A stretch of DNA of 64,000 bases, from positions 1 through 64,000 of the forward strand of contig NZ_SRIF01000011.1 of the NCBI RefSeq assembly GCF_004681185.1, in the 5' to 3' direction. The position numbers and the translations under genes were made by a program. Within the stretch, counting starts at the first letter, position 1. Each line of letters starts with the position of its first letter. A model generated the notes under the pieces. The model was given only the letters and a program-made list of their open reading frames with translations, was not told the DNA's origin and did no database searches. This document shows, one piece after another, positions 44,099 through 64,000 of the stretch. This DNA is from Haloarcula amylovorans (GTDB lineage: Archaea > Halobacteriota > Halobacteria > Halobacteriales > Haloarculaceae).

Positions 44099-44100
44099 CT

Positions 44101-47597: not shown

Positions 47598-47636
47598 AAA
47601 AAGGCTTTCTCAGTAGCCTATCTACGAAGTATCAGT

Positions 47637-48884
47637 ATGTACTCTTCTACGCCTCAAAATCCAATCGCTACCTTCCTCCACGATCTATTTTCGCGAGAGA
47701 GCCACATTGATCCAGCAATCCATGTTAGAGAGACGGGCCCGAACCCAACCCAACAACAGCATGTGTTAGCGGAAATTGCGCAGTTAGCGCTAGAGAATTT
47801 CCCCCTCGACGACTTATTTGACAAAACGGTTGAGCGCGTAGCAGACGCACTCGATCACGACTACTGCAAGATCTTGGAACTTCGGCCAGCCAATGACGAG
47901 TTGCTACTCCGGAATGGCGTGGGGTGGCATGACGGTATTGTCGGGACGGCGACAGTTGAGACCGAACAAAACTCACAAGCGGGGTACACTCTGCTCAGCG
48001 AAGAACCCGTAGTCGTCACCGACCTCCCAACTGAAGATCGGTTTACCGGACCGGAGTTACTCACGTCCCACGATGTCAAAAGCGGTATCAGCACTATCAT
48101 TGGCACGCCAGACGATCCATGGGGGATTCTGGGCGTCCATACCACGACCCCCGAAACCTACACCGACGACGATGTAGCGTTTGTTCAGAGCGTCGCCAAC
48201 ATCTTGTTCACCGAGATTCGGCGACAGCAACGTGAAGCCGAACTGGAGGCCCAAAATGAACGCTTAGACGCGTTCGCGAGCATGCTAGCTCACGAACTCC
48301 GCAACCCCCTCACCGTCGGCCAAATCTACAGTCAGCAACTCTCGGACGATCCAGAGACGGGCGCCGCAACACACGTTCGAGAGGCGTTCGATCGTATCGA
48401 GGACATAATTGATGTCCTACTAATACTGGCCCGTGGTCATGATGAAGTCTGCGAGAACGACACGGTTGTCCTCGCGGACGTCGCCCGCGATGTGTGGTCG
48501 CGTGTGAACGCTCCGGAGGCGACGCTAGTGGTAGACACCGACCGTGTTCTACAGGCCGAAGACACGTATGTTCGGCATCTCCTCGAGAACCTGTTCAAGA
48601 ACGCGGTCGAGCATGGCGGGGGTGATGTGACTGTCACGATCGGGAACCTCTCGACCGGGTTCTACGTTGCAGACGACGGGACAGGAATTCCCGCAGACAA
48701 TCGAGACGATGTATTCGACATTGGCTTCACGACGGCTGCTAAGGAAGGTGGAACCGGATTGGGATTGGCGTTCGTGCGAGAATTGGCGAATGTGTACAGC
48801 TGGACGTGTACGCTGACCGAGAGTGTCACTGGTGGTGCCCGGTTCGAGTTCGAGAATGTTGGTCTCCTCGAACAAGAGGATTGA
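47637..48884 (+). CDS. GAF-domain sensor histidine kinase
   Basis: 415 residues from the ATG at 47637. An N-terminal linker is followed by a GAF domain (about 45-200; TVERVADALDHDYCKILEL, EEPVVVTDLPTEDRF, DPWGILGVHTTTPETYTDDD), a coiled-coil helix, the phosphoacceptor HisKA segment SMLAHELRNPLTVG with His near 222, and a HATPase_c domain with LFKNAVEHGG, DDGTGIPADNRDDVFD and GGTGLGLAFVREL. It is soluble, with no membrane helix. An upstream in-frame ATG would add 53 basic residues crossing a repeat motif and is not credible. No response regulator lies nearby, which is usual for haloarchaeal kinases. Confidence 0.88.
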   Translation: MYSSTPQNPIATFLHDLFSRESHIDPAIHVRETGPNPTQQQHVLAEIAQLALENFPLDDLFDKTVERVADALDHDYCKILELRPANDELLLRNGVGWHDGIVGTATVETEQNSQAGYTLLSEEPVVVTDLPTEDRFTGPELLTSHDVKSGISTIIGTPDDPWGILGVHTTTPETYTDDDVAFVQSVANILFTEIRRQQREAELEAQNERLDAFASMLAHELRNPLTVGQIYSQQLSDDPETGAATHVREAFDRIEDIIDVLLILARGHDEVCENDTVVLADVARDVWSRVNAPEATLVVDTDRVLQAEDTYVRHLLENLFKNAVEHGGGDVTVTIGNLSTGFYVADDGTGIPADNRDDVFDIGFTTAAKEGGTGLGLAFVRELANVYSWTCTLTESVTGGARFEFENVGLLEQED

Positions 48885-48956
48885 GCGGTTAGCACCGCGT
48901 TTTATCCGATCTTCATTTGGCTCCTCGCAATCTCTACAGGCGGGGCAGGCCGAGTA

Positions 48957-49031
48957 CCTCGGGGTCGTACGGAAATCGAAGACGTCCGTGATGACGAGAC
49001 GCTTCGCGTCTCGAACCACTTGACCCCGAGG
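48957..49031. repeat. nested inverted repeat / hairpin
   Basis: Outer arms CCTCGGGGTC (48957-48966) and GACCCCGAGG (49022-49031) are perfect complements over 10 bp. Inside them CGAGACGC (48995-49002) and GCGTCTCG (49006-49013) form a perfect 8-bp stem with a TTC loop. The element starts 72 bases after the kinase stop. The rest of the 48885-49265 gap has no gene. It could be a foldback element, an insertion-sequence end or a structured RNA. Confidence 0.6.
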
Positions 49032-49265
49032 CGGTTGACAGACGTGCCGTCTTTCTCTCGGACTGTTGATCAGTCGTCGCGTAGTCTCTCAGTAGTGAGT
49101 CGTCTACGAATCCGCTCTTCACCTACTCCACTCTCACCCGTATTGAAACAGTGACAATAGGATGTATCTTATGCTGAACAGAAGTGGAGAGTCCGCACGA
49201 GAATCCATTCGCTTCTACAGATCACAACAGAACTTAGAGTTCGAATTTCGAGCGGCGTAGCTGTC

Positions 49266-49919
49266 TTATCCCGGTCCAAATGCTGCGATATCCGCTCCTA
49301 CTGTTGCCAGTGCATCGGCAGGGTTCGGGTCGCTGTCGGCTAGATGCGTGTACTGGTGGTCCGGGATATTTGCCAGGGCCACCATTATGGCCTCACTGTA
49401 CGCTTCGACGCCTGATACTGTTGGGTCATCCCCTCCCCAGACATCATGGATGACTGTCATCGAATCGATGTGAACGTCCAGCCTGCGTGGCTCGTAGCGA
49501 GTCAACAGTTCGGCAAGCCCGAGCTGAAGGGCGACGTACTCGGCAGTGTTGTTCCCTGTTCGGGAGCCAACGGGCCGGCTAAGACGGGCAAGTTGGTTCT
49601 CTTCAGCGTCCATAATGACCGCGCCCGCGCCCGCTGGGCCGGGGTTTCCACGTGAACTGCCATCGACGTAGAGAACAAAGGTATCGTCCGTCGGCTCGGG
49701 GATGGGTGGATGGGTGAGTTCCGACGCCAGCAGCTCTTCGAGTGCATCACGCAACTCGGTCGAAGAGGTTTCGGGGTCGAAGAGACCGCCGTGGCCGGGG
49801 ACAGCGTCGTTGATAGCGTCGGTGGCCGCCGGCATTTCGTAGCCGACGTCCGCGAGTACCTCCTCGATGAGCGTGGCAAGCGGCGAGAGGTGTTCTGCTG
49901 GGAGGGGGTCCTCGGTCAC
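49266..49919 (-). CDS. rnhA: ribonuclease HI with N-terminal extension
   Basis: 217 residues, GTG start. The RNase H fold starts at about residue 80: LYVDGSSRGNPGPAGAG (Asp 86), NNTAEYVALQLGL (Glu 127), VHIDSM (Asp 152) and the final acidic residue Asp 202 in SDPNPADALA complete the catalytic set. The 78-residue acidic N-terminal region (LATLIEEVLADVGYEMPAA) is a haloarchaeal addition of unknown purpose. It degrades RNA in RNA-DNA hybrids. Single gene. Confidence 0.9.
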   Translation of the reverse strand: MTEDPLPAEHLSPLATLIEEVLADVGYEMPAATDAINDAVPGHGGLFDPETSSTELRDALEELLASELTHPPIPEPTDDTFVLYVDGSSRGNPGPAGAGAVIMDAEENQLARLSRPVGSRTGNNTAEYVALQLGLAELLTRYEPRRLDVHIDSMTVIHDVWGGDDPTVSGVEAYSEAIMVALANIPDHQYTHLADSDPNPADALATVGADIAAFGPG

Positions 49920-50518
49920 GCTCTTTGCCTCGGCAGGCTTTGGCTCCAGGTCCGCACATCCTTGCTCTCTGAAGTGTTTAGTGACTGGTCGAACCGCTGC
50001 ATAGAGAACCTACGGTGGTCAGCGGCATAATATCTTCAGATGGCTCGGCACTCTTGCAACTCGCAATATAGGTGCCGGGGACTTGGATGGCCCACCACCC
50101 CACTGCATCTAGTGCTTGACCTTCAGAGCGGTGAGGGCAGTGACGCGACAACTTGGCTTCCCGAGGACAGTGTAACTCTCACTGTCGATTGCATGCGTAG
50201 ATCGTCGCGGCTGGGCACGCTCTCGGCGGTCGTCGGGCTCGGCAGACATCACTCATCAGAACGCGGTGGGGGTCGTCGGTGTCGTACCACTATCGAAGGG
50301 TCGCGATGTCCGCATCGCTGTCGACGAACGCTTCCAGAGGTTCACGGTCTAGACCTATCACAATGATGGCGTCAGGGTAGTTAGAAATAGGGTATTCGAT
50401 AATACCCAAGTTGCACTACCTTATTTGGCACTTTTGGGGGAGTGGGCCAGCACTGGACGGCAACGCTTGCTGCCGATATTCCCCTTAGCCTCTTATTCTT
50501 CCGGCGAGTATCTTCCGT
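49920..50518. other. 600-bp intergenic region with no credible gene
   Basis: Short open frames occur on both strands, but none has a recognised family, and codon usage looks irregular. An AT-rich stretch near 50386-50425 (GGGTATTCGATAATACCC, an imperfect palindrome) precedes the EamA gene by about 120 bases and may be regulatory. Nothing else is supported. Confidence 0.4.
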
Positions 50519-51514
50519 GTGTCGACTGCCCGCTGGTCACGAGTCGTCCGTTCTCCCCGGTATCGAGATACCGTTCTTTTCGTTCTCCTTGCCGCCCTCT
50601 TCGGTGGGTCATTTGTTGCGATAAAGGCGGGCCTCCGTGAACTGCCACCGATCTTGTTCGCGGGTCTGCGCTTTGATATCGCTGCCGTCGTCCTGTTAGC
50701 GTACATCGCTGGGACGAGCGAGCGATCCGCGTGGATACCGAGGACACGTGGTGATTACCTCGGGATTGGTGCCGGAGCGGTGTTTCTCATCGCACTCAAC
50801 AACGGCTTGTTGTTCCTCGGCCAAGTCACCACGACACCTGCTGCAGCCTCCGTCATGTACGGCCTCAATCCGATAGTGGCACCCATCTTCGCGTGGTGGT
50901 TGCTCGGCGATCGGCTCTCCCGACTCGGGGCAGTCGGGATTGGGATTGCGCTATGTGGTGTCATTATCATCGTACAGCCATCGCCGTCGACGTTTACTGA
51001 TGCGAGTGCGATCGGACAGTTGTTTGTCCTCGGTGCCGCTGGGGCGGTTGCCCTGGGAAGCGTGTTACTCCAGCGTGTCGGTCCGCGAATGGCGAGCAGT
51101 GCGTTGACCGCGTGGGCCATGGCTGGTGGTGCAGTGATCCTCCACGCGAGCAGTCTGCTTATCGGGGAACCACAACCGAATCTGCTCGCGCTCGAACCAG
51201 TGACGGTCCTGAGTCTGCTGTCACTTGGGATTCCATCGACAGCAGTCGCGTACGCGATTTATTTCGGACTCATTGGCCGGATTGGGCCAGTCCGTGCAAA
51301 TCTGGTGGCCTACGTCGTGCCTGTCTTCGCTTCGCTCACCGGCTGGGTCGTACTTGAATCGTCAGTCTCGGTCTGGACTGGCGTTGGATTTCTAGTCGTC
51401 GTTGCTGGGTTCGCGCTCATCGAACGACAGGTCGTTGGCACAGAACTTGCTCGTCTCTGGCGGCGATTCCGTGGCCCATCGTCGGATGGCGAGCGGGTCG
51501 ACGGTGATGACTGA
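50519..51514 (+). CDS. EamA/DMT-family transporter
   Basis: 331 residues with ten predicted membrane helices in two EamA repeats. The first has FGGSFVAIKAGLRELPPILFAGLRFDIAAVVLL and TTPAAASVMYGLNPIVAPIFAWWLLGDRLS. The second ends IGPVRANLVAYVVPVFASLTGWVVLESSVS. Drug/metabolite exporters of this family move amino acids, nucleobases or other small metabolites; the substrate is not predictable. The start is GTG at 50519. The C-terminal 30 residues are charged and cytoplasmic. Confidence 0.88.
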   Translation: MSTARWSRVVRSPRYRDTVLFVLLAALFGGSFVAIKAGLRELPPILFAGLRFDIAAVVLLAYIAGTSERSAWIPRTRGDYLGIGAGAVFLIALNNGLLFLGQVTTTPAAASVMYGLNPIVAPIFAWWLLGDRLSRLGAVGIGIALCGVIIIVQPSPSTFTDASAIGQLFVLGAAGAVALGSVLLQRVGPRMASSALTAWAMAGGAVILHASSLLIGEPQPNLLALEPVTVLSLLSLGIPSTAVAYAIYFGLIGRIGPVRANLVAYVVPVFASLTGWVVLESSVSVWTGVGFLVVVAGFALIERQVVGTELARLWRRFRGPSSDGERVDGDD

Positions 51515-51635
51515 GACGATCTCACAGTAGAATCCGTATTACACCACCTCTCTAAGTCGGATAGTTCCGGTATCTCAGTCGGCCTAAGAATCAAATCGGA
51601 AACTTAGAACGAATCTCGTCGTGGGACCCGAACAA

Positions 51636-52424
51636 TTACCGCTGAAGCCCTTCCCCGTCGGTTGCGACCGGGCGTTGTGTCCGGGTCAATTGCGCTTCGA
51701 AAGAGGCTGCCGATTCGGCGTCATCGCCAGCGAGCGCGCGCTGCTTTTCGACCTCCGAGTGAACGGCGTCCGTTATTCGTGGATGCGCTCCAAGCGGATC
51801 GGCATACTCGATGCCACCGCGTGCGAGTTCGAGTTCGTCGGGAATCCGGCTTTCGGTCGCTTCGGTTCGTGTCAGAAAGAGGGGGACAGCTACCGACTGG
51901 TTCTTGCTAGTATTGTACCGCACACATTCGACTGTGGGGTTCTGGAGGAGATAGCAGGTCAGCACCTCTCCGTACCCCGACTGTTCTCGAAGTCGAGCCG
52001 CGTGATAGTCGGTCGTTTGCCGGTGGTACGGTTTCGAACTACTCCCGAACCCAACGAGAATGAGAGAGACGTCGTCAGATGCCGGAATCAGACTTGCTCC
52101 TTTCTCTTTTATCACCTCGGTGATGGCCGGGTTCTGACCGAGTGGTTCGCAGTAGTGGACATCTCCGGAGATATAGGAGAGCGCAGCGGGGACACCGTCA
52201 ATCGTGTCGTGACTGTGTGCAGCACACATCGGGACTGCATACACTGTATCCGCAGAAATCCGCTCGAACTCCTCTTTGAGTTCGCGGATCGGTTCACTCT
52301 CGTACGTCGCTATCTCGACGTCGTCGACGACAGCTCGTCGGTTGAGACGGCCGGCGTGTGCTTCGAGCACTTCGTGAGCGTTTCTCGTATTACGGCCGAT
52401 GAGCAGGATTGATTCGGTTGTCAT
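51636..52424 (-). CDS. cbiX: CbiX-like sirohydrochlorin cobaltochelatase
   Basis: 262 residues in a tandem chelatase fold. The N-terminal unit has ESILLIGRNTRNAHEVLEAHAGRL, and metal-binding His residues appear in VPMCAAHSHDTID (near 68-80). The second unit carries VSLILVGFGSSSKPYHRQTTDYHAARLREQSGYGEVLTCYLLQNPT and VPLFLTRTEATES. The canonical HGS motif near the start is degenerate (GRN), so activity is less certain than for the CbiX-ferredoxin protein at the window end. It is on the minus strand, after CbiE. Confidence 0.82.
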   Translation of the reverse strand: MTTESILLIGRNTRNAHEVLEAHAGRLNRRAVVDDVEIATYESEPIRELKEEFERISADTVYAVPMCAAHSHDTIDGVPAALSYISGDVHYCEPLGQNPAITEVIKEKGASLIPASDDVSLILVGFGSSSKPYHRQTTDYHAARLREQSGYGEVLTCYLLQNPTVECVRYNTSKNQSVAVPLFLTRTEATESRIPDELELARGGIEYADPLGAHPRITDAVHSEVEKQRALAGDDAESAASFEAQLTRTQRPVATDGEGLQR

Positions 52425-52602
52425 GGGTCATCCACGCGCACAATTTCATTTGTGCTAACCCAATTCGGGTTGTCTTACCGGTCGAGACGGACTATCAAAT
52501 AAGTTTTGGTGAGGCCGATATCGTTCAGCGTGGGAGTGGCAATAGTGACACAGAATGGATCAGTAGCCCGTAGATAGCGGTAACAGTGATTAAAATGGCG
52601 CT

Positions 52603-53367
52603 TCAGTCGGACCGAACAGCTACTACCGACAGATCAGAGAATGGTGACGTCTCTCCATCTGATTCTTTCGTGAGTGCCTGGAGCTTCCCCAGCGTCGTCG
52701 TGGTCACTTCTTCGTTGTCGTGTGTCAGATGTTCTAAGACGAGAACCTCCAGTGAGTGGGAAGCGCCTGCATCGAGTAAGTCGGCGGCGATGTCTTCCGG
52801 CATCCAGTCGTAGGGACGCGGGAGTACAAGCAGGTGTCGCTCACCGACCGCGTCGCGGAGCCGACGGAGGTCGCGTGTAATATCCCCACTCTTGTGGAGT
52901 GTCACGAATACTGTCTCCTCCAGCGGTGTTCGTGCCCTGCTGGCGGCCACCTGCAGGGACGAGATTCCAGGGATGACCCGAACTGGCCGTTCGACAGCGG
53001 CCTGAACCTTCCCGACGAACTGGTAGCCCGAGTGGTTCGGATCACCCATCAGGACGGCCGTTCCGGACTCCCCGTCAGCCACGCGCTCAGCGAACGTCAC
53101 AAGCGTCTCGGCTTCATCACGATACCCACATGTGAGTAGGTCAGCGTTCGTCATCTCGCGGACGAACTCGACGACAGTCTCGAAACCCACGACGACATCA
53201 GCATCGCGGATTGCGCGCTCGCCGCGAGGGGTCAGATACTCCAGGTTACCCGGACCAATGCCGACTGCGTACACCGGGTTCTCCGCCGATGCAGACTCCG
53301 TTTCAGGGACCGACGCCGCCAGCGTCGCTGGATCGGGGCCGGCGTCCAAGTCGTACGTGTCGCTCAC
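52603..53367 (-). CDS. cbiE: cobalt-precorrin C5-methyltransferase (CbiE-like)
   Basis: 254 residues, GTG start. Tetrapyrrole methylase motifs are VYAVGIGPGNLEYLTPRGERAI (near 33-54), VLMGDPNHSGYQFVGKVQAA, RPVRVIPGISSLQVAASRART and LLVLPRPYDWMPEDIAADLLDAG, ending FSDLSVVAVR, which fits CbiE better than CbiH or CbiF. A 25-residue acidic N-terminal tail is lineage-specific. It overlaps the cbiC stop by four bases. No separate CbiT is present in the window. The exact position in the corrin pathway should be regarded as probable. Confidence 0.8.
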   Translation of the reverse strand: MSDTYDLDAGPDPATLAASVPETESASAENPVYAVGIGPGNLEYLTPRGERAIRDADVVVGFETVVEFVREMTNADLLTCGYRDEAETLVTFAERVADGESGTAVLMGDPNHSGYQFVGKVQAAVERPVRVIPGISSLQVAASRARTPLEETVFVTLHKSGDITRDLRRLRDAVGERHLLVLPRPYDWMPEDIAADLLDAGASHSLEVLVLEHLTHDNEEVTTTTLGKLQALTKESDGETSPFSDLSVVAVRSD

Positions 53368-54095
53368 GGGAGGTCGGCCTCTCCACTCCGAACATCGCTC
53401 GCCACGTGGACGAGTTCGTTCGTCAGGCCGGCTGCCAACCCGCTTCCGCCGCGACGGCCGACGTTCGTGATTGCAGGGACGCCGTAGGATTCAGCGACCT
53501 GGCGCAGCCGTTTCCGGCTCTCCGCAGCTTTGACGAAGCCGACCGGGGTGGCGACCACCACGGCAGGGCGCGTGCCGTCTGCGATGCAGTCTGCGAGGGC
53601 GAGTGCTGCGGTCGGGGCGTTCCCGATAACGGCGATGGCACCGTCGTAAGTCCCCTGTCGGTCGAGTTCGAGTACGGACGCAGCCGTCCGCGTCATGCCA
53701 GTCTGTTTCGCAAGTTCGGCACCGTTCCCGATGGCCTTCTGGACCGGACAGTCGTGACCGCGACCAGTAATACCGGCTTTGACCATCGTGATGTCGGTAA
53801 CGATGGGACGCTCGTCGAGGACCGCTCGTGCGCCGGCGACGACCGGTTCGTCCTCGGCTTCACCGGTGAACCGGACGAAGTACTGGAACTCGGAATCGCC
53901 CGTCGCATGGACACTCTTTTGCCGGATACGGTCGGCCAGCGTCTCGTCCGGGACGAGTTCGCGCACGCGATCCATACTCGTCTCGGCGATCTCCATCGCG
54001 TTCTCGGTCGTCGCACCGAGGTCTGCGTACTCCTCGACGTCGCTGACGTTCCTGTCCTCGCTACCGCCGTTTGTTCGGCTCTCGTCAGTCGTCAT
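53364..54095 (-). CDS. cbiC: precorrin-8X / cobalt-precorrin-8 methylmutase
   Basis: 243 residues from the ATG at 54095. The catalytic His is at about 63 in RQKSVHATGDSEF. PIVTDITMVKAGITGRG, IGNAPTAALAL and PAVVVATPVGFVKAAESRKRL are conserved substrate-binding segments. It moves the C11 methyl group to C12 to make hydrogenobyrinate or cobyrinate. It starts 11 bases inside the end of cobN and overlaps cbiE, so these three genes form one minus-strand operon. Confidence 0.94.
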   Translation of the reverse strand: MTTDESRTNGGSEDRNVSDVEEYADLGATTENAMEIAETSMDRVRELVPDETLADRIRQKSVHATGDSEFQYFVRFTGEAEDEPVVAGARAVLDERPIVTDITMVKAGITGRGHDCPVQKAIGNGAELAKQTGMTRTAASVLELDRQGTYDGAIAVIGNAPTAALALADCIADGTRPAVVVATPVGFVKAAESRKRLRQVAESYGVPAITNVGRRGGSGLAAGLTNELVHVASDVRSGEADLP

Positions 54096-57000
54096 CGCTG
54101 GACACCTCCGGTGCGTTCGTGCTCCCGGCACGTGCTTCGATGTCACCGTCCACTCGAAGGTTGATGTCCCGAAGCTCGTCGGCGGTCTCGTCGTCGGCGT
54201 CCCACAGTCCGCGGTCGATTGCCTCGAGGAGTGTGTCACTGATACTCTCCAGAGCCCACGGGTTCACGTCGCGCATCCACTCCTGTCGGTCCTCGTCGAA
54301 CGCGTACTTCTCGGCGACGTCGGCCCAGAGCGCGTCACTGACGACGCCTGTGGTCGCGTCCCAGCCGAGGACGACATCCACGGTGGTCGACAGGTCACCA
54401 GCACCCTTGTAGTCGTGGTCCGCCATACTATCGAGCCAGTCGGGATTGAGTACGCGGGCGCGCATCGCCTTGCGAACCTTCTCCTCGTTGGTGTACACGG
54501 AGACGTTGTCGGGGTCGCTTGAGTCACCGACGTAGGAGGCAGGCTCCTCGCCTGCGATCTCTGAAACGGCGGTGATGAACCCGCCGTGGAACGCGTACCA
54601 GTCGGAGCTGTCGAACTCGTCCTGTTCGGCGGTGTCCTCGATCTTGACCGTAGCGTCGACGCTACCAAGGCGTCGCTCGAAGGCGTCGTGCGCCTCCGTC
54701 ACCCGTCCTCGCTTCCCGAGTGCGTAACCGCCCCACTGCACGTACACGTCGGCGAGGTCGGACCGGTCGTCCCAGTTCCCCTCATCGACTGCTTTGTTCG
54801 TCCCGGCACCGTACCCCCCCGGTCGGGTCGTGAACACCCGACGTCTGGCCGCTTTTTCGGGGTCGTCGACACCCTGCTCGCTGAGTCGCTCGGCTTCCTC
54901 CTCGACGTGCTTTTTGACGTAGTTCATCTCGTATGGCTCGTCGAGGTCGACGACCGCGTCGACGGCGTCGTGAACGACACCTGCGGCCTGTGGGAAGGCA
55001 TCGCGGAACAGCCCCGAGACACGAGTCGTGACATCGATTCGGGGGCGGTTGAGTTCGTCCAATGGAATTGGAGCGACCCCGTCGATACGTCCGGCGTCGG
55101 TCCACTCGGGTTCGACGCCCATCAGCGCAAGCACCTGCGCGATGGTCTCGCCCCGCGTTCGAACGGTCGGCGTTCCCCACGCGACGACGCCGATCTCCTC
55201 GGGATACGCGCCTTCTTGATCGTGGTGACGCGCCGCGATGCCGTCAGCTATCTCCCGCCCGACGCGCCACGCGCTCTTGGCCGGTACCTTCCGTGGGTCC
55301 AGCGTGTAGAAGTTCCGTGCCGTCGGTAGCAGGTCGACCCCGCCTCGCGTCGGCGCACCGCTCCCGCCAGGCGGGACGTACTCGCCGGCCAGGGCGTCTG
55401 CCGTTCTCGGAATCTCGTCCTCCGCACCTCGCACCCGGGGGGCAACCTCCTCACAGATGAACGCCAGCGCGTCCCGAAGGTCGTTGTGTGCGCCGGATGT
55501 CGCACGTGTGTCCCCGAGTGGGTCGATGTCTACCACGAGGAGGTTCATGTTGACCTCGTCCGCCGGTCCCGCCTCTGCCTCCGAAGCCGGGATGTCGAAG
55601 TCGTGTGCGGCCAGCGTTTCCACGAGCGTGAGACTCGTCTCGTACACTTCGTCGGCAGCCTCCGAGAGTGTCGTGCCCAGTTCGTCGTCGTACGCCCCCG
55701 GTTCGTCGAGCATCCGCTGGTAGTCGACGCCGAGCACACCGGCCACACTTTCACGGAGACTTGGCCCGCCTGGGTTCTCTAGGCGCGTGAGTGCGACGAG
55801 GTACTCGACGAGACGGTCCGCCTCTGGGGGCTCGCTCATCGTGTGGAGCCCCATCCGAATCTGCGTCGTCTTCACGTCCGTGAGGTACTCGTGGACGCGT
55901 TCGACGAGTTCGTCCACGTCGACCTCTGCTCGCGGGTCGCTCTCTTCCCCGCTCGACCGTGCCGAGGCGCTGTGCGCCTCGCTCTCGTCGATATCGCCTG
56001 CGGTGCCGAGTTCGACCGCGAGGTCGAGGTCGTCGACTTTCTCTCGGAGAAGCCGTTCGAGGTGCTCCCCGTCGTCGGTGCGGGCGTCTTGCATCCCGGC
56101 TTCCCGATACTGGTCGGCGAGTTCCTCGAGTTCGGCCAGTTCGTCGTAAGTGCCGGCGTTGCGCATCACCGGCGTCAGGTAGTCGACGATGGCTGCGTAC
56201 GAGCGCCGTTTCGCTTGGGTCCCCTCGCCCGGATTGTTGATGATGTACGGGTAGACGTTCGGGATATCGTCGACGAGCTGGTCCGGAGCGCTCTCGCCGT
56301 TCAGCCCGACCGTCTTGCCGGGAAGCCACTCCAGACTTCCGTGCGTGCCGAGGTGAACGACGGCGTCGGCCTCGAACGCGTTTCGGAGCCAGCCGTAGAA
56401 CGCCACGTAGTCGTGGGGGGGCTGGAGGTCGGAGTCGTGATAGACCTTCGAGGGGTCCATCCCGAACCCACGCGGTGGCTGGACGGTGACGAGGACGTTT
56501 CCGAACTCGACGCCGGGGATGGCGAACGGACGGTCGGGCACTTCGCCCCATTCGTCGACGACGTTCGTCTGGAAGCGTTCGTCCATGTCCGCGAACCACT
56601 CGCGATACCGCTCCGTGGACACGACATCGACGCTCAACTCTCGCACGTCTTCGGGGGCGACCCAACGGTCATCAAGAGTGAGTTGTGCGGTCAGCCGGTC
56701 CACCAGGGCCTGGCCGCTCTTCGGGACCGAGCCGCCGAGGTCGTAGTCGCGCTCGCGAAGTTCTTCGAGGAGGTTGACGGTGCTCTCGGGACTATCGAGT
56801 CCGAAGGCAGTGCCGATGCCGTCGTCGCTCGGCGGATAGTTGTGCAGGACGACCGCGACGTTCTTTTCCTCGTTCGAGGTGTGCCGAAGAGTCGCCCAGT
56901 TGACCGCAAGCCGCGCGGCGTGGTTCACCCGATCGTCGATGGGGAAGTGCTGTTTCGGCGCGCTCCCGATACCGGCCTCGTCGTCGGTCCGTTCCTTACC

Positions 57001-57957
57001 GCTAATTGGATGCGTGATGACGTTGCCGTCGAACTCCGGGAGCGCGACTGACAGCGCGAGTTCGAAGCCCATGACGCCCGTGTCGCTCTTCTCGTACCGA
57101 GAGCGAGATCGCATCGTCGTCACAGTCTGGATGACGGGCACGCCGAGTCGGTCGAGGAAGACGTCTTCCGCGCTGGCTCCCTCGTCGTCGGCCGCCCGCC
57201 CTCGTTCGTCCATCGAGAGCGAGAACATGAACGACGAGAGCACGGCGTCGATGACCGGCTCGCCGTCGTCCAGCAGCCACTCCTCCGTCACGTGTTCAGC
57301 ATCCCACTGTTCGTCGGTGTCTGTCGCGGGATTACAGAAAATCGGGAGTGCATCTGCACCCTGGGCTTCGACGGCGCGTACTTGGGCGTCGACGTACCGC
57401 GTGTTCTCGTGGGTCCAGTGAGATTCGTAGAACCAGATAGCGACTGTCGGTATGTTGGGATCGAGGGTATCGGTCAATTCCTCGTACGACGCTCCGGGGT
57501 GGTCCGGATGGTAGACACCCTCCGTTGGAAGTGTCACCGGGTCGTCGTAGTCACACTCGCGTTCCCCGTACTCGTCGACGAGGAACCGAACACAGTTCGC
57601 GACGTTGCTGGTCCCACCTTTCTCCAGGTATTCGTAAACTCGATCGCGGTCTGTCGCAGTGACAGACGTATCATCCAGTGCGTAGGCGTCACCGGTGGAT
57701 TTGACGACCAGCGGGACGCCGGCCTCTTCCAGACGGCCGACGGCGTGGTCGTACCCTGGCATACTCTCCTCAGCGCCGTGGAGCCAGAAGATCGCCGCCG
57801 CCGCATCTTCGAGTTCGTCGAGGAACGCGTCGACGTCTGTCTGATCGTCGAGATCACTCTCCGAGCGAACGACCAAGTCGACGTCAACTCGCGCCGCCGC
57901 CTGCTGGACGGCTCCGAGCTCGTTCTCGGTCGCGGTGTAAAGGCCGATTGTTGGCAT
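54085..57957 (-). CDS. cobN: cobaltochelatase large subunit CobN
   Basis: 1290 residues, close to the usual CobN length. The N-terminal domain has TIGLYTATENELGAV and AIFWLHGAEESMPGYDHAVG. The core shows VAIWFYESHWT, VVLHNYPPSDDGIGTAFGLDSP, VVHLGTHGSLEWLPGKTVGL (metal-binding histidines near 570-575), NPGEGTQAKRRSYAAIVDYLTPV, and the C-terminal VVAWGTPTVRTRGETIAQVLALMG and TTRVSGLFRDAFPQ. It inserts cobalt into the corrin ring using ATP with an AAA/vWA partner, encoded divergently 34 bp away. A highly acidic insert lies near 640-690. The predicted promoter gives a leaderless message. Confidence 0.96.
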   Translation of the reverse strand: MPTIGLYTATENELGAVQQAAARVDVDLVVRSESDLDDQTDVDAFLDELEDAAAAIFWLHGAEESMPGYDHAVGRLEEAGVPLVVKSTGDAYALDDTSVTATDRDRVYEYLEKGGTSNVANCVRFLVDEYGERECDYDDPVTLPTEGVYHPDHPGASYEELTDTLDPNIPTVAIWFYESHWTHENTRYVDAQVRAVEAQGADALPIFCNPATDTDEQWDAEHVTEEWLLDDGEPVIDAVLSSFMFSLSMDERGRAADDEGASAEDVFLDRLGVPVIQTVTTMRSRSRYEKSDTGVMGFELALSVALPEFDGNVITHPISGKERTDDEAGIGSAPKQHFPIDDRVNHAARLAVNWATLRHTSNEEKNVAVVLHNYPPSDDGIGTAFGLDSPESTVNLLEELRERDYDLGGSVPKSGQALVDRLTAQLTLDDRWVAPEDVRELSVDVVSTERYREWFADMDERFQTNVVDEWGEVPDRPFAIPGVEFGNVLVTVQPPRGFGMDPSKVYHDSDLQPPHDYVAFYGWLRNAFEADAVVHLGTHGSLEWLPGKTVGLNGESAPDQLVDDIPNVYPYIINNPGEGTQAKRRSYAAIVDYLTPVMRNAGTYDELAELEELADQYREAGMQDARTDDGEHLERLLREKVDDLDLAVELGTAGDIDESEAHSASARSSGEESDPRAEVDVDELVERVHEYLTDVKTTQIRMGLHTMSEPPEADRLVEYLVALTRLENPGGPSLRESVAGVLGVDYQRMLDEPGAYDDELGTTLSEAADEVYETSLTLVETLAAHDFDIPASEAEAGPADEVNMNLLVVDIDPLGDTRATSGAHNDLRDALAFICEEVAPRVRGAEDEIPRTADALAGEYVPPGGSGAPTRGGVDLLPTARNFYTLDPRKVPAKSAWRVGREIADGIAARHHDQEGAYPEEIGVVAWGTPTVRTRGETIAQVLALMGVEPEWTDAGRIDGVAPIPLDELNRPRIDVTTRVSGLFRDAFPQAAGVVHDAVDAVVDLDEPYEMNYVKKHVEEEAERLSEQGVDDPEKAARRRVFTTRPGGYGAGTNKAVDEGNWDDRSDLADVYVQWGGYALGKRGRVTEAHDAFERRLGSVDATVKIEDTAEQDEFDSSDWYAFHGGFITAVSEIAGEEPASYVGDSSDPDNVSVYTNEEKVRKAMRARVLNPDWLDSMADHDYKGAGDLSTTVDVVLGWDATTGVVSDALWADVAEKYAFDEDRQEWMRDVNPWALESISDTLLEAIDRGLWDADDETADELRDINLRVDGDIEARAGSTNAPEVSSDDD

Positions 57958-57991
57958 AACGTTGTTAAACCTCCATTGCGATAATACAAGT
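57958..57991. promoter_or_regulatory. 34-bp overlapping divergent promoter between cobN and the chelatase ATPase
   Basis: The whole intergenic spacer is 34 bp. On the minus strand a GTATTATC element (57981-57988) lies 25-30 bases before the cobN ATG. On the plus strand GTTAAAC (57964-57970) lies about 25 bases before the ATG at 57992. Both transcripts would be leaderless, and the two core promoters would physically overlap, so expression in the two directions is probably mutually exclusive or shared by one regulator. Confidence 0.5.
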
Positions 57992-60139
57992 ATGGTTGAT
58001 TACGGCGAGGGCAAAAAAGCTTCGCACGGTCGGGGGACGTCGCTGGCCTTTTCGGAGATCGTCGGTCAGGAGGAGCTCAAGAGAGCCTTACGTGCCATCG
58101 CAGCGAACGGTAACTTGGATGGCCTCCTCATACAAGGTGAGAAAGGAACTGCAAAGTCCACGGCGGTGCGGGCGCTAACTGACCTTCTTCCGGGACAGGA
58201 CGCCATCGAGGACTGTCCGTACGGCTGCCCGCCGAACGTGCCTGAACAGCAGTGTGAGGCCTGCCGTGAGCGGGAAGACCCGCCGACGACCGAACGGTCG
58301 GTTCCTCTCGTGACGCTCCCGCTGGGGGCGACCCGGGAGCAGGTCGTCGGAACGCTCTCCGTGGCGGACGCGCTCGACGGCGACTACGAGTTCGACCCCG
58401 GACTGCTCGCCCGCGCGAACCGCGGTATCCTCTATGTCGACGAGGTAAATCTCCTCGACGATCACCTCGTCGACGTGTTACTTGATGCGGCGGCGAGCGG
58501 GGTCAACAGAATCGAACGCGACGGTATGAGTGTCTCCCATCCAGCCAGGTTCACGCTCGTGGGGACGATGAATCCCGAAGAGGGAGATCTCAGACCACAG
58601 CTTCGCGACCGTTTCGCGCTCCAAGCGACGGTCACCGCCTGTGAAGACGTGGATCGACGGGTCACTATCATCGACCGAGCGATCGGACGAACAGATCGTG
58701 ACGGAACGGAGCAATCGACCAACAAACGCTTTGAGAACGGAGACTTCCGAGAGCAGTTGTGGCAAGCCCGCAAACGGCTCTCCGAAGTCGATCTTTCGAC
58801 ACAGTTCGCCCGGGACATAGCGGAACTATGTCGTGACTCGGGTGTTGAGGGACACCGCGGAGACATCGCGACAGCGCGCGCCGCAATGACGTTCGCCGCT
58901 CTCGACGGGCGCTCGAAGGTCATCGAAGCCGACGTGCAGCGGGCGGCAGAACTCGCGCTCCCTCACCGGCTTCGATCTCGACCGTTCGAAGACGCGCCCG
59001 ATCCGAGTGAACTCATCGACGACCACTTCGATGGAGAGAGTGACGACGACGGACAGGGGGACCGAAACGACCGCCCCGACGAGGGACCCTCCGGCGACGA
59101 GGATACTTCGGACGGAATGGACGACGACGGAGATGCTGAAGACGCCGAGGGGACAGACACGTCGGACTCAACCGATTCCGGTCCGTCGGAAAAAAACGGC
59201 GAGTGCGACGGGGCCGAGACCGGCGCGTCGTCCCTGGAACGGAGTGACGAGGCGGGGACTGACGACGTCGAAGCGCAGGCGACGGACGAGAACAGGAAGG
59301 CGGACGAAAACGACGACGTGACGGAAGGGACGCCGGTCGTCCCTGGACAGTCCCGTGCTGACATCGGGGCGGGACGAGCTCCCGAACTGACCGCACCCGA
59401 AGCCATCGAGAGCGGGAGAGCAGGTAGCGGATTCCGGTCGCGGACACAGCCACACGCAGACACCGATGGAGCACGGATACGGAGTCGGCGGGCGGATTCG
59501 AACCGACGCATCGACGTTGCGGCGTCGGTTCGAGCGGCATCCGCCCGCGGTGCTTCGTCCGTCGAATCGCGTGACCTACGTCAATCTGTCCGCCAGAGCG
59601 AGTCCTCCGCGCTGGTGGTGTTCGTCGTGGACGCGAGCGCGTCGATGTTACCGGCGATGCGTGCAGCGAAGGGGACCGTCCTCGAACTCCTGAAGGACGC
59701 GTATCAAAAGCGCGACGAAGTCGCGTTCGTCGCGTTTGCCGGCGAGGAAGCAAACGTGCTCCTCCCACCGACGAACAGTGTCACCCTCGCCGCTCGACAT
59801 CTCAAGGATCTGCCGACCGGTGACCGGACGCCACTTCCGTCAGGTCTCCGCACGGCTGGCGACGTGCTCGATCGGGCCGAACCGAGTGCCAGTGTCGTTG
59901 TGGTGGTTACTGATGGGCGAGCGAACGTTGCGAAAGAGAGCCCAATCCGTGAGACGCGTGAAGCCGCTAGACGATTGAGCGAGTACGAGCCTCACGTGGT
60001 CGTCGTCGACGCGAGTGACGGTGACAGAACCGGTGTGACGGACCTGGTCGCCGACGAAACGGACGGCGAACGTGTCCCGCTCTCCGCACTGTCTGCCGAC
60101 CGAATCGAGGTGGCCGTCGATGTCGCACACGAAAGTTAG
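57992..60139 (+). CDS. ChlI/ChlD-type AAA+ vWA chelatase subunit (partner of CobN)
   Basis: 715 residues. Residues 15-335 are a BchI-like AAA+ module: FSEIVGQEELKRAL, Walker A GEKGTAKST, Walker B GILYVDEVNLLDDHLVDVLLDAA and NPEEGDLRPQLRDRFAL. An acidic, repetitive hinge of about 180 residues (GESDDDGQGDRNDRPDEGPS-type) follows. The last 190 residues are a vWA domain with the MIDAS motif VVDASASMLPAM. It contains both ChlI and ChlD functions in one chain, replacing CobS/CobT. It is transcribed divergently from cobN. I take the ATG at 57992 because the spacer places a TATA-like element correctly. Confidence 0.93.
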   Translation: MVDYGEGKKASHGRGTSLAFSEIVGQEELKRALRAIAANGNLDGLLIQGEKGTAKSTAVRALTDLLPGQDAIEDCPYGCPPNVPEQQCEACREREDPPTTERSVPLVTLPLGATREQVVGTLSVADALDGDYEFDPGLLARANRGILYVDEVNLLDDHLVDVLLDAAASGVNRIERDGMSVSHPARFTLVGTMNPEEGDLRPQLRDRFALQATVTACEDVDRRVTIIDRAIGRTDRDGTEQSTNKRFENGDFREQLWQARKRLSEVDLSTQFARDIAELCRDSGVEGHRGDIATARAAMTFAALDGRSKVIEADVQRAAELALPHRLRSRPFEDAPDPSELIDDHFDGESDDDGQGDRNDRPDEGPSGDEDTSDGMDDDGDAEDAEGTDTSDSTDSGPSEKNGECDGAETGASSLERSDEAGTDDVEAQATDENRKADENDDVTEGTPVVPGQSRADIGAGRAPELTAPEAIESGRAGSGFRSRTQPHADTDGARIRSRRADSNRRIDVAASVRAASARGASSVESRDLRQSVRQSESSALVVFVVDASASMLPAMRAAKGTVLELLKDAYQKRDEVAFVAFAGEEANVLLPPTNSVTLAARHLKDLPTGDRTPLPSGLRTAGDVLDRAEPSASVVVVVTDGRANVAKESPIRETREAARRLSEYEPHVVVVDASDGDRTGVTDLVADETDGERVPLSALSADRIEVAVDVAHES

Positions 60140-60197
60140 GTTTGGTTCGTCCGGAAGGTTTACAATCTTGCTTGATGTTGTGCAAGTGTGGTTTAGA

Positions 60198-60386
60198 ATG
60201 GCGACTGCCAATAACACCGTTCACGGTCGGATTGAACAGGCTCGCATGGAACTAACGTCAACGCAGCTGGCCGTCGGGTTCGCTCTCGTCGCGGCACTCG
60301 GATTCGCCCTCCTGTTCGTTCAGGAGCCGATGCTGCACGATTCGATGCACAACTTCCGGCACGCGGCGGGTATTACCTGCCACTGA
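60198..60386 (+). CDS. cbtB: cobalt transporter subunit CbtB
   Basis: 62 residues. One membrane helix (LAVGFALVAALGFALLFV, about 23-40) is followed by the conserved metal-binding tail EPMLHDSMHNFRHAAGITCH with several His and a terminal Cys-His. This is the CbtB signature. It lies two bases upstream of cbtA. Confidence 0.92.
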   Translation: MATANNTVHGRIEQARMELTSTQLAVGFALVAALGFALLFVQEPMLHDSMHNFRHAAGITCH

Positions 60387-60388
60387 TC

Positions 60389-61159
60389 ATGTTCGCCGAA
60401 TACCTGAAACGAGGCGTGAAGGCAGGAGTGATTGCCGGGCTAGTGTTCGGTCTACTCATGGCACTCGTCGCCAATCCACTGGTCGCGTTCGCTGACGAGG
60501 TCGGGCATGGGAGTGATCACGCTGTCAGTCAGCATCACGAGGAGGCGGGTAGCGAACACCACGACAGCGCCGTTTCGATGGTGGTTACGAACGGCGTGAG
60601 TGTCGTCTCCGGGGTTCTCTGGGGTATTCTTCTGGGTGGCGTCGTCTTTGGCATCGCGTACTACTTCCTCGAACCCGCAATCCCGGGAACCGGTGGAACG
60701 AAGAGCTATCTCTTGGCCGTCGCTGGCTTCATCACCGTCTCGGGGGCTCCGTGGCTCATTCTCCCGCCACAGCCACCGGGAGTGGAACAAGCGCTCTCGA
60801 CGGAGACGCGAATCATACTCTACGGGGGAATGATGGTGGCCGGTGCGCTCGTTTGTTTGTTCGCAGGATTCGTGTACGGTCGGCTCAGAGAGACACGCGG
60901 ACGAACGACCGCTTCCATCGTCGCGATGCTCTCACCCTGTCTGCTCGCGATTCCAGCCGCTCTCTCACCGGTGAACGCAGTAGAGAGCCCCCTCCCACCC
61001 GAGTTGGCCGCCGGGCTGATCGGACTGATCGTGTTCGGACAGGCGTTACTCTGGCTGCTCCTCGCGGGCACGCACGCTCGGCTTCGTCGTCAATCGGAGA
61101 ATATTGCAGCCCCGGCGGTCGGGACCGATCACACCGACAGAACTCTCGCTGCAGATTGA
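60389..61159 (+). CDS. cbtA: cobalt transporter subunit CbtA
   Basis: 256 residues with about five to six membrane helices. The start MFAEYLKRGVKAGVIAGLVFGL matches CbtA. A His-rich external loop (HGSDHAVSQHHEEAGSEHHD, residues 40-59) suits divalent-metal capture. LEPAIPGTGGTKSYLLAVAGF is a family motif. With CbtB it forms a predicted cobalt importer usually found beside cobalamin genes. Its stop overlaps the next ATG (TGATG). Confidence 0.93.
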   Translation: MFAEYLKRGVKAGVIAGLVFGLLMALVANPLVAFADEVGHGSDHAVSQHHEEAGSEHHDSAVSMVVTNGVSVVSGVLWGILLGGVVFGIAYYFLEPAIPGTGGTKSYLLAVAGFITVSGAPWLILPPQPPGVEQALSTETRIILYGGMMVAGALVCLFAGFVYGRLRETRGRTTASIVAMLSPCLLAIPAALSPVNAVESPLPPELAAGLIGLIVFGQALLWLLLAGTHARLRRQSENIAAPAVGTDHTDRTLAAD

Positions 61160-61563
61160 TGAGATCGCGAACCGAAGACGTCCACGAGAACGGGTTCTCC
61201 GATCATGTATTAGTCTGTACGAACATGCGAGACGCAGAGTACGCATGCTGTGCGGAGGCGTACGGTGAAGAAGTGTACGAGGCAGTGAAGTCGTGGTTGC
61301 GTGAACGGGGCGTCTTCTGGTCTCGCGTCCACGTCGCCGAGACGAGCTGTCTCGGACTCTGTAGCGCCGACGGCACCGCAATCGCAATCCATCCCCGAAA
61401 CCGGTGGTACTCGGACGTGCTCCCGGAAGATGTACCGGAGTTGCTCGAAGACGAATTCGGTGCCGACGCGTCGCGTTTGGGAATCAGCCATGGAAGCAAT
61501 GCCGCCGGTGGGTCAGGTGAGGAGCTTAAAAATTCCGTAGATGACGAGCACGCCCACGAGTAA
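61159..61563 (+). CDS. thioredoxin-like [2Fe-2S] ferredoxin
   Basis: 134 residues. The cluster Cys are in VLVCTNMRDAEYACCAEA (two) and ETSCLGLCSADG (two), as in 2Fe-2S ferredoxins of the CbiW/thioredoxin-fold type. VAIAIHPRNRWYSDVLPED is typical of the family. It is co-transcribed with cbtBA. A related domain is fused to CbiX at the end of the window, so electron transfer to the corrin pathway is plausible. The acidic tail (about 30 residues) is disordered. Confidence 0.86.
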   Translation: MRSRTEDVHENGFSDHVLVCTNMRDAEYACCAEAYGEEVYEAVKSWLRERGVFWSRVHVAETSCLGLCSADGTAIAIHPRNRWYSDVLPEDVPELLEDEFGADASRLGISHGSNAAGGSGEELKNSVDDEHAHE

Positions 61564-61667
61564 CGGAATCAGAAAGCGGACGACTGGCGGTTAGCGGTTC
61601 AAGGAGCAGCGTGGTCATTGGCAGGTCGGGCGCTCCGAAGAATCTTTGACGGAGTTCGAGTCGAGAA

Positions 61668-63026
61668 TTATCTGGCAGACGCTGTTCCGAGTAACAACCG
61701 ATAGGTGCCACGTTTCACTCCGTCGTCGTGATAGACCATCGGCTCCTCTACGGCAGCGAACGATTCACTGTCCAGTGCGACCGCTGTGACGATGCCATCG
61801 GTTTCGAGGGTCGTTTCGGGGCCAGTTTCCGTACTGAATATTCGCAAACCGTGAACCTCGGCATTGCGCGTGCGAAAGTGCTGCGCCCCGGGAATGGCTA
61901 CGCGGTCACCTTCGACACCAAGTTCGCTCGCGAAGCCACCCACCGAGGCTGTCCAGACGCGCTCGCCGTCCTGCGTGTACCCGAGAGCGGTATGCTCACG
62001 GGGATGCAGCGACGCTGTCTCGCGACCCTCCGTCGAATACGTGTTCCCCGTGATGAAGACCGCGCCGTCCGCCGTCGCGTGCACGTGGTTTGGATACGCG
62101 TACAGCGTTTCATCGTCGACTGTCGTGGGGGTTCCAAGGTTGACACACCACTGTTCGGCACCCCCGTCGCGAAGACGGTAGCCACAGTAGTCTCCGTGGC
62201 TGGCAACCACGACTCCATCTTCGACGAGCGAGACATCACCGACGCGTCGTTGGCCGTCGGTACCGGGATCCCATTCGTATCGCACAGCACCCGTTTCAGT
62301 ATCGAGGACGAGAAGGCCGTGCTGATGGGTGCCGGGACAGCGATTGTACGCAATGGCTAGGCGGCGATCTCCGACATCGAGACTAATCGGGGAGGCGTCG
62401 GTCTCGTGCGTCCAGACGACATCGCCCGTCTCGTCGAACGCGTAGACGACACTGGTAAACGATCGACGCACCCCATCGCGGCTCCCGGGTCGTTCTCGCT
62501 CACGGGTCGGGTCCGCCTCCCCGTTCGCTGTTCCGAGGCTCGCTTTGCTCACCTCGCTCTCCCCGCTCGCTCGTTCCGAGGGCTCGCTCCGCTCGCCCCC
62601 GCGTTCGTAGCGACGGGACGCAACGTACAACCGATCTCCCTCTGTCTCGATATCGGCAATGAAAGGAAGGAAGAACCGGGACGCTTTCTGCGGGGTCCCG
62701 ACGTCCGTCGCTGTGGCGTACTGCCACCGAAGTTCGCCGGTGTCCTGGTCGTAGAATCTAACGGTGCCCTCGGGACTGCGCTCGCCGACCGCGACGCCGT
62801 CCGCGAACGGCTCCGCTGCGACGACGGACGTCATCTCGGTTTCCCTTCCTGTGCGCCAGCGCATGTCGAGGGTGGTTCGATCGTGAGCGACCACGTCGCC
62901 GGTGGCCGTCCCAGTGACCACTAGTTCGTCGGCCAACGCGACTGCCGACCGTCTGCCTGCATGCCGTGATCGAGCTGGCGGTACGTCGCCGAGTCCGATC
63001 GCTCGCCGTTTTCGCGCGTTACTCAT
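61668..63026 (-). CDS. PQQ-like beta-propeller protein with low-complexity insert
   Basis: 452 residues from the ATG at 63026. Repeated propeller blades carry the pattern GTVRFYDQDTGELRWQYAT, VVYAFDETGDVVWTHET, LLVLDTETGAVRYEWDPG and HTALGYTQDGERVWTAS. There is no signal peptide. Between blades an insert of about 40 residues (residues 150-190), rich in Glu, Arg, Ser and Gly, looks like translated repeat DNA (62500-62620). It overlaps DUF3209 by eight bases. Such propellers recur in haloarchaeal cobalamin clusters; a binding role is inferred. Confidence 0.75.
   Translation of the reverse strand: MSNARKRRAIGLGDVPPARSRHAGRRSAVALADELVVTGTATGDVVAHDRTTLDMRWRTGRETEMTSVVAAEPFADGVAVGERSPEGTVRFYDQDTGELRWQYATATDVGTPQKASRFFLPFIADIETEGDRLYVASRRYERGGERSEPSERASGESEVSKASLGTANGEADPTRERERPGSRDGVRRSFTSVVYAFDETGDVVWTHETDASPISLDVGDRRLAIAYNRCPGTHQHGLLVLDTETGAVRYEWDPGTDGQRRVGDVSLVEDGVVVASHGDYCGYRLRDGGAEQWCVNLGTPTTVDDETLYAYPNHVHATADGAVFITGNTYSTEGRETASLHPREHTALGYTQDGERVWTASVGGFASELGVEGDRVAIPGAQHFRTRNAEVHGLRIFSTETGPETTLETDGIVTAVALDSESFAAVEEPMVYHDDGVKRGTYRLLLGTASAR
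62500..62620. repeat. GC-rich GCTCGC-type repeat tract inside a coding gene
   Basis: Repeated CTCGCT / GCTCGC / CTCCCC units (for example CTCGCTCTCCCCGCTCGCTC) resemble the short intergenic spacers common in haloarchaea, here inside an ORF in frame. It encodes the low-complexity region of the propeller protein. Confidence 0.5.
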
Positions 63027-63390
63027 CGACGGGGAAGGTTTCGTGGAGAACGTCGTGTGCCTCACCCAACCCGCCGAGAACACTCTCGCCCTGGTCGGTC
63101 AATCGGTGGACGGCACGCTCCGCGTCGCGGACGGCCACTAGCCGTCCACGCATGTACTCGTATTCCGGATTATCTGAATCGGTGGCAGCGATTTCCTCCT
63201 CAAGGTCGACGAGCGCCGCGTCGAGGTGGCGCTTGATCCCCGAAAGGGTCTCCGCGTTTGCCAGGGCCTCGATTGGGCCATCGAGGTGGCCCTCCAATTC
63301 TTTCTCCGCGTGTTCGCGCGCGCTCCGGTCTTCGGTCCCGAGCACGTTCATCAGCCCGAGTCGTAGGGCTTCGATTTCGTAGCAACTCAT
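63019..63390 (-). CDS. DUF3209 family protein
   Basis: 123 residues, nearly all helical: CYEIEALRLGLMNVLGTEDRSAREHAEKELEGHLDGPIEALANAETL, then a second helix pair and YEYMRGRLVAVRDAERAVHRLTDQGESV. This is the DUF3209 pattern, known in haloarchaeal cobalamin gene clusters and not characterised. It lies eight bases after the CbiX-ferredoxin gene and overlaps the propeller gene. Confidence 0.88.
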   Translation of the reverse strand: MSCYEIEALRLGLMNVLGTEDRSAREHAEKELEGHLDGPIEALANAETLSGIKRHLDAALVDLEEEIAATDSDNPEYEYMRGRLVAVRDAERAVHRLTDQGESVLGGLGEAHDVLHETFPVDE

Positions 63391-63398
63391 GAGTGTGG

Positions 63399-64000
63399 TT
63401 ATAGCGTCTGACCGACGAGGTTCGAGACGATGCGGCCCCGATCGAGGTGGGACGAAACGATTCGCTCCGCGCCGGCCTGGTCGACATTCCCGTACCAGAC
63501 ACCGTCGGGATAGACAGCGACCATGGGGCCGTCGCCACAGCGGCCGAGACACGACGAGCGAGTGATGCGGGCGTCACAAGCGTCGGAGTCCCGGGCCTCC
63601 TGTCGCAACCGTTCCAGAACGGCCGGTGAGCCGTCGGCGGCGCAGGTCTGATTCGTGCAGACCGCGACGTGCTTCTCCGGTGCGTCGTGCGCGTGGGGCT
63701 GGGCGTCCACGTCGTCGCGGTCTGCGTGAGATTCCTGGTGTGTCAGCGCCCGCAGCATCGCTCTCGCGCCGCCGACGTCTTCCTCGTACCCGTCGAGTTC
63801 CACCTTGTACTTGCAGGTGTCACAGGACATATCCACGCTGTCAGTTCGAGCTTCCTGCCAACGATCACCGAGCACGTCCAGAATTCGGGTGTCGGTCCCG
63901 AGCGGGTCGCCGGCCGCGGCGTCAACGTACGGGTACTCGTCGTCGAACTCGGCGGCATTGTCGCGGATCCGTCCGGTGAGTACGCCGTCCCCAAGCATGT
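63399..64000 (-). CDS. cbiX: CbiX cobaltochelatase fused to [2Fe-2S] ferredoxin (5' end beyond window)
   Basis: The gene runs off the window, so at least 200 residues are visible. The first visible part (LGDGVLTGRIRDNAAEFDDE to SCDTCKYKVELDGYEEDVGG with LRALTHQESH) is the C-terminal region of haloarchaeal CbiX with its CxxC motif and a His-rich linker. The rest is a thioredoxin-like ferredoxin domain: AVCTNQTCAADGSP and RSSCLGRCGDGPMVAVYPDG hold four cluster Cys. It inserts cobalt early into sirohydrochlorin. It opens the minus-strand operon with DUF3209 and the propeller. Confidence 0.88.
   Translation of the reverse strand, partial: MLGDGVLTGRIRDNAAEFDDEYPYVDAAAGDPLGTDTRILDVLGDRWQEARTDSVDMSCDTCKYKVELDGYEEDVGGARAMLRALTHQESHADRDDVDAQPHAHDAPEKHVAVCTNQTCAADGSPAVLERLRQEARDSDACDARITRSSCLGRCGDGPMVAVYPDGVWYGNVDQAGAERIVSSHLDRGRIVSNLVGQTL

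Follow-up and report, generated by a model that had tools for sequence, protein, structure and literature searches.

The cobN-chlID gene pair and its gap

The genes for two partner subunits of a cobaltochelatase, cobN and a chlID-type gene, run away from each other out of 34 bp of DNA, and this locus raises the question of what holds so short a gap in place and how both genes are controlled from it. The window, that is, the whole stretch of DNA analysed here, is 64,000 nucleotides long and lies on a contig (C3) of a 5.0-Mb haloarchaeal genome. The gene pair is arranged in it as follows.

54085..57957, minus strand: cobN, cobaltochelatase large subunit, an ORF of 1290 aa (TIGR02257, 900 bits; PF02514, 1271 bits)
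57958..57991: putative intergenic promoter/operator region of 34 bp, bounded by the ends of the cobN and chlID ORFs (32-35 bp in 53/53 loci)
57992..60139, plus strand: chlID-type AAA/VWA ATPase gene, partner of cobN, an ORF of 715 aa with its ATG at 57992

The CobN product exceeded the NCBIfam cut-off for TIGR02257 (cobaltochelatase CobN), and its gene is the first of a cobN-cbiC-cbiH-like gene row. The best NCBIfam model for ChlID was TIGR02442 (putative cobaltochelatase ATPase), which scored 674 bits and thus stayed below its cut-off of 779. In the excerpts of PMC8305020, the haloarchaeal CobN/ChlID chelatase itself is treated as an open question, with salvage as a possible role.

Orthologues of cobN were found in 53 of the 96 family genomes, our own included, and the start regions of our own locus and all 52 others were taken as the locus set. 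In every one of them chlID was head to head with cobN, and the gap measured 34 bp in 36 loci, 35 bp in 13, 33 bp in two and 32 bp in two. Both starts agree with the homologues in the gap length that they give. An earlier note on this DNA had described a 34-bp divergent gap between cobN and the ATPase gene and regarded the arrangement as unusually tight; the length proved exact, and since the arrangement recurs in all 53 loci, it is no accident of one genome. These observations support a strong constraint on the gap spacing. By annotation, the gap was also 34 bp in all five named plasmid loci carrying the pair (Haladaptatus, Halorubrum, Halorussus, Halobaculum and Halococcus), and the closest named plasmid match of ChlID was that of Haladaptatus halobius (80% identity). 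In a collection of named genomes, the 14 haloarchaeal loci in which both genes were matched were all divergent and had all kept the operator site described below; the gap was 34-35 bp in the eight with clearly aligned starts, and the starts of the other six were uncertain. The bacteria and methanogens in the same list show other cobN/chlID arrangements. A Haloterrigena match (H12) was excluded from the count, being an AAA/VWA pair without cobN.

As a separate observation on this region (54085-60139), the N-terminus of our CobN is 82-84% identical to that of some other genera and only 74-76% identical to that of seven genomes of the same genus. The cbiT-linked type of DUF7839 gene, which is dealt with below, is absent from these seven as well. 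With CobN identities closer to other genera, the cob cluster looks horizontally acquired.

Predicted core promoters within the gap

Both strands of the gap carry a TATA-like box.

57965..57969, plus strand: TATA-like box TTAAA for chlID, at -27 to -23 of the ATG, as read from the sequence
57982..57986, minus strand: weak TATA-like box for cobN, TAATA (TATTA on the minus strand), at -29 to -25 of the ATG, likewise read from the sequence

The region has the make-up of a divergent promoter, with head-to-head genes and the predicted core promoters of both within one short gap. The TTAAA columns were mostly conserved in an alignment of 35 loci having a gap of exactly 34 bp with CAT/ATG-or-GTG ends. 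From these positions, leaderless starts are plausible for both cobN and chlID, and the geometry implies that two transcription complexes would hardly fit at once. The boxes on both strands fit the claim of the earlier note that the promoters are leaderless and overlap physically; the start positions themselves stay predictions. A scan of 57700-58300 for bacterial promoters and terminators found none, as expected in an archaeon.

An operator-like palindrome in the gap

57974..57991: predicted operator core CATTGCGATAATACAAGT, a TTG-N8-CAA palindrome that extends over the presumed cobN TATA as far as the chlID start

The palindrome reads TTGt-N6-aCAA, and the consensus of the gaps is AACGTTGTTAAACCTC..TTGt..TAATACAAGT, followed by the chlID start. 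A palindromic weight matrix with the seed TTG-N8-CAA was trained on 48 upstream regions of cbtB alone, the promoters of which are not divergent. The best match of this matrix fell at the same place of the gap in 53/53 loci. The gap operators scored a median of 16.8 bits against 2.3 bits for shuffled gaps, and 38 of the 53 gaps were above the 99th percentile of the shuffles while 15 were not. Among 3636 other segments of 59 bp, the median was -8.2 bits and none reached 16.8. When the same matrix was run over the 64-kb window, the top three sites were the cbtB promoter, the gap and the promoter of a cbiX-type gene, all of which belong to B12/cobalt genes. Judged from the sequence, the most specific element of the gap is an operator-like palindrome, and the gap most probably serves as an operator in a B12/cobalt regulon, through which both chelatase genes would be switched together.

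The bare pattern TTG-N3-TA-N3-CAA occurred at 16 places in our genome, two of them at cob genes, and its reversed control occurred at 50. Over the 96 genomes, a tight form of the palindrome pattern was matched in 11 genomes and its reversed control in eight. Five of its places were B12-related, namely the gap in G066, G054 and G094, nrd in G046 and, presumably, one in G014 that is separated from the start of cobN by about 6.2 kb. This search was discarded as unspecific relative to the reversed control, and tests promoter by promoter were therefore used instead. A perfect palindrome, TTGGAATATTCCAA, was seen on three contigs of our genome (G000:C2:88988, C4:91261 and C6:1124), with near-identical flanks in two cases; these copies are probably part of a mobile element and not operators. 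The best remaining site of our genome (G000:C29:228510-228523, L114; 20.7 bits) has only short unannotated ORFs nearby.

The palindrome at other B12, cobalt and nrd genes

Two further copies lie in the window.

60170..60187: second copy of the predicted operator, GCTTGATGTTGTGCAAGT, in the cbtB promoter; no site of the window scores higher with the cbtB matrix
60199..60387, plus strand: cbtB, from the sequence; CbtB is annotated at the same place in relatives
60389..61159, plus strand: cbtA, following cbtB (the two are cobalt transporter genes), from the sequence; CbtA is annotated in relatives
52448..52465: third copy, ATTTGTGCTAACCCAATT, ahead of a gene for a CbiX-type chelatase; ranked third in the window by the cbtB matrix
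51636..52424, minus strand: gene of a CbiX-domain protein (PF01903, E 6e-16)

The second copy sits between TTTACAA (60160-60166) and the cbtB ATG at 60199. This promoter is 2.2 kb from the gap and non-divergent, and TTGt-N6-aCAA is found upstream of cbtB in most relatives. The third copy became the best site of the window when a refined matrix was used, from the cbiT part of which L077, L095, L099 and L058 had been omitted. Directly after cbtA, the frame at 60751-61563 contains a (2Fe-2S) ferredoxin-domain protein, as annotated in relatives.

At cbiT, which heads the corrin-ring operon, the cbtB matrix located a site in 33 of the 36 loci, at -56 to -53 relative to the start and adjoining a TATA-like TTTTA. 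Two of the remaining three loci have an uncertain start, and the third has a weak match at another place.

Class I ribonucleotide reductase requires no B12, and in B12 regulons its genes (nrd) are classically the B12-independent partner. Full-length NrdB (>270 bits) was found in 23 of the 96 genomes; the nrd set consisted of 21 loci (20 plus L082) and drew on G046 and 20 more of these genomes, with G084 and G089 omitted. A matrix trained on the gaps and cbiT, and not on nrd, gave a score of at least 13 bits in 19 of the 21 loci, and the two without a good site scored 3.0 and 11.2 bits. As controls, none of 32 natural 4-kb pieces reached 13 bits (maximum 8.3), and 3 of 420 shuffles did. One operator is accordingly found above chance at several linked promoters (the gap, cbtB, cbiT and nrd, with cbiX in the window), and as in a B12 regulon, its sites combine B12 synthesis and cobalt uptake (cobN, chlID, cbtB and cbiT) with a B12-independent isozyme (class I nrd). 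Since class I nrd is the B12-independent partner, B12 supply is what links the sites.

Phased half-sites and codon 2 of chlID

57996..57998, plus strand: outer half-site TTG within chlID codons 2-3 (53/53 loci)

The half-sites repeat every 10 bp. They were counted in the gaps, in the nrd loci with a good site, in the 44 of 48 cbtB regions scoring at least 12 and in 34 of the 36 cbiT loci. The distance between the inner TTG and an outer TTG was exactly 20 bp in 53/53 gaps and 34/34 cbiT loci. At nrd, it was within one base of 20 bp in 18 of 19 loci, 11 of them being one base short, and at cbtB, TT was present at the outer half-site position in 43/44. A further CAA 20 bp upstream of the inner CAA was observed at nrd (17/19), cbtB (36/44) and cbiT (16/34); the gap has it in 0/53 loci, and the chlID TATA occupies its place there.

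The outer TTG of the gap falls within the coding sequence. Codon 2 of chlID was NTT (GTT, ATT, TTT or CTT) in all 53 loci, which are related, so that these half-site and codon counts are not independent events; in the background, 804 of 8976 NTN codons end in T (past codon 10 in 134 annotated genes). The first base of codon 2 and its amino acid vary, and the TT is constant.

A candidate regulator beside cbiT

Our genome encodes a 271-aa protein in which an N-terminal winged helix is combined with a C-terminal DUF7839; its gene (G000:C3:70977-71792) is divergent from the adjoining cbiT. It scored 35 bits with PF12802 (cut-off 27). In its AlphaFold model (mean pLDDT 74.7, pTM 0.45), residues 7-102 could be aligned to MarR, PadR and CggR chains with Z of about 11-12; the domain hit and this model alignment suggest a MarR-like winged-helix DNA-binding domain. 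The fold search with the whole model placed only the winged helix and returned no match for the rest.

Relatives of this protein were found in 92 of the 96 genomes and in 71/71 of the high-quality ones; DUF7839 also occurs in Haloferax volcanii, Methanocaldococcus and Methanosarcina. The gene lies beside cbiT in 32 of the 54 cbiT genomes. The other 22 have the DUF7839 gene elsewhere or have only a type of 42-48% identity (17 of the 22), and those of the 22 in which gaps were read still keep the operator. In G046, which lacks cobN, the DUF7839 gene is divergent from class I nrdA, and two operator copies, one a near-perfect palindrome, lie between them. The search also took in nine loci of ~8 kb, each around a DUF7839 gene that lies away from cbiT; two (L082 and L087) do carry a site, and seven (L081, L083-L086, L088 and L089) had no site of at least 9 bits. 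One of these genes encodes a second DUF7839 protein of our own genome (G000:C1:726235-726996; L089:3736-4497), which is 44% identical to the cob-linked one, and no operator site of at least 9 bits was found in the surrounding 8.5 kb.

The HTH-DUF7839 protein beside cbiT is our leading candidate for the regulator and the least certain part of the reading; we put its chance at a little under even. It is a still more tentative proposal that HTH-DUF7839 proteins act as archaeal B12-sensing repressors, which would read the 10-bp-phased array and bring corrin synthesis, cobalt uptake and the ribonucleotide reductase switch under joint control.

Proposed regulation and its alternatives

It is probable that the compressed divergent promoter is an operator of a haloarchaeal B12/cobalt regulon that is repressed when B12 is plentiful. 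The transcriptional regulation may be as follows. A dimeric winged-helix regulator would bind the half-sites of TTGt-N6-aCAA, which recur with a 10-bp period. Bound in the gap, it would lie over the cobN TATA as well as the chlID start, closing both presumably leaderless promoters at once. The same operator would serve cbtBA, cbiX, the corrin ring operon headed by cbiT and also class I ribonucleotide reductase in genomes that have it. Sufficiency of B12 or cobalt would favour binding and joint shut-off, so that the genes are repressed while B12 is plentiful and released when it is short. The positions suit a repressor, because the operator covers the cobN TATA and chlID start in the gap, lies between TATA and start at cbtB, and abuts the TATA of cbiT. 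Against a repressor counts that, in the excerpts of PMC3794607, a second cob/cbi regulator of Halobacterium was deduced to be an activator. What the sequences show directly is the gap with its fixed length and the shared palindrome with its phasing; binding, ligand and direction of control are our inference from them.

The earlier note had suggested that competition of the two promoters for the same DNA may balance the chelatase subunits; in such a reading there is no dedicated regulator. Competition would agree with the constant length of the gap and with the distance of about 17 bp between its TATA-like boxes. However, the same palindrome stands at the cbtB, cbiT and class I nrd promoters, where no chelatase partner shares the gap and no cobN-chlID competition arises, and the claim gains no support as the main point; as a full account we consider it improbable. 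Joint switching by one regulator accounts better for the conservation, for which competition is unneeded, though cobN/chlID competition could operate on top of the operator. We attach even less weight to the idea that the conserved letters are just two core promoters, TATA and start codons, squeezed together without an operator. AT-rich starts are common, and the presumed cobN TATA is itself the TAATA of the palindrome, but at cbiT the equivalent site precedes the TATA, at cbtB it falls between the TATA and the start, and codon 2 is under constraint inside chlID.

Two alternatives accept the operator. The regulator may be a different protein, a cobalt sensor or an unrelated winged-helix protein responding to cobalt, with DUF7839 a mere neighbour. 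That cbtBA and the chelatases handle cobalt speaks for it, as do the 17 cbiT-bearing genomes having only the 42-48% type of DUF7839 and the absence of a site from seven of the nine DUF7839 loci away from cbiT. We nevertheless hold it to be rather unlikely, since class I ribonucleotide reductase uses no B12, which ties the set at least indirectly to B12 status, and the DUF7839 gene of G046 adjoins nrdA with the two operators. It is somewhat less likely again that cobN has a leader, in which case its transcript would start ~30 nt further upstream from a TATA box in chlID codons 8-9 (TTTTTT on the minus strand) and use a GGAGG that lies 12 nt before the cobN ATG on the cobN strand. The lysine codons among chlID codons 6-12 were AAA in 69/76 cases as compared to 14/28 in codons 2-12 of background genes, in keeping with a leader, whereas 12 nt is a long spacing for a Shine-Dalgarno site and GAGG is not conserved in all gaps. 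A leader would alter the promoter geometry and not the operator, and is compatible with the B12/cobalt regulon that we favour.

Relation to known systems

Bacterial vitamin B12 regulons are run by cobalamin riboswitches. MarR/PadR-like repressors have short palindromic operators. Rfam gave no match to a riboswitch or cobalamin family at E up to 1 in 44000-64000 of the window, and a cobalamin riboswitch was rejected there. In what the excerpts of PMC8123684 describe, bacterial cobalamin-riboswitch regulons resemble the B12/cobalt regulon proposed here in that a single signal governs the synthesis of B12, the uptake of cobalt and a B12-independent isozyme; unlike them, the present sites are DNA palindromes at promoters that would leave little or no leader. 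Riboswitches are reported to be rare in archaea in the excerpts of PMC3794607, which also describe transcriptional control of haloarchaeal B12 genes by TrmB in Halobacterium salinarum and deduce a second cob/cbi regulator besides TrmB, without naming the protein there. Membership of the TrmB regulon was rejected here, as TACT-N7/8-GAGTA had no exact occurrence in the window and was matched within one mismatch in 1 of the 53 gaps. CoaR of Synechocystis, as presented in the excerpts of PMC7689651, is similar in that it may read both cobalt and the state of the B12 pathway; it is a cobalt sensor of the MerR family with a tetrapyrrole-binding domain and activates cobalt export, whereas the candidate here is an HTH-DUF7839 protein. 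The candidate's modelled winged helix likens it to MarR/PadR-like repressors, from which it differs by the extra DUF7839 domains that follow.

The full texts searched held no account of the DUF7839 function or of the motif, the letters of which are not searchable. B12 regulons as such are already known; what would be new here is an archaeal one run by a DNA operator. The putative promoter-operator is packed into 34 bp and extends into the adjacent coding sequence. The common operator defines a regulon that can be tested, puts forward a candidate protein and predicts that B12 status is linked to the synthesis of DNA precursors. If the proposal for DUF7839 is true, these repressors would switch between B12-dependent and B12-independent ribonucleotide reductase and do in archaea the job that riboswitches do in bacteria. 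The operator regulon thereby bears on how haloarchaea control the synthesis of vitamin B12.
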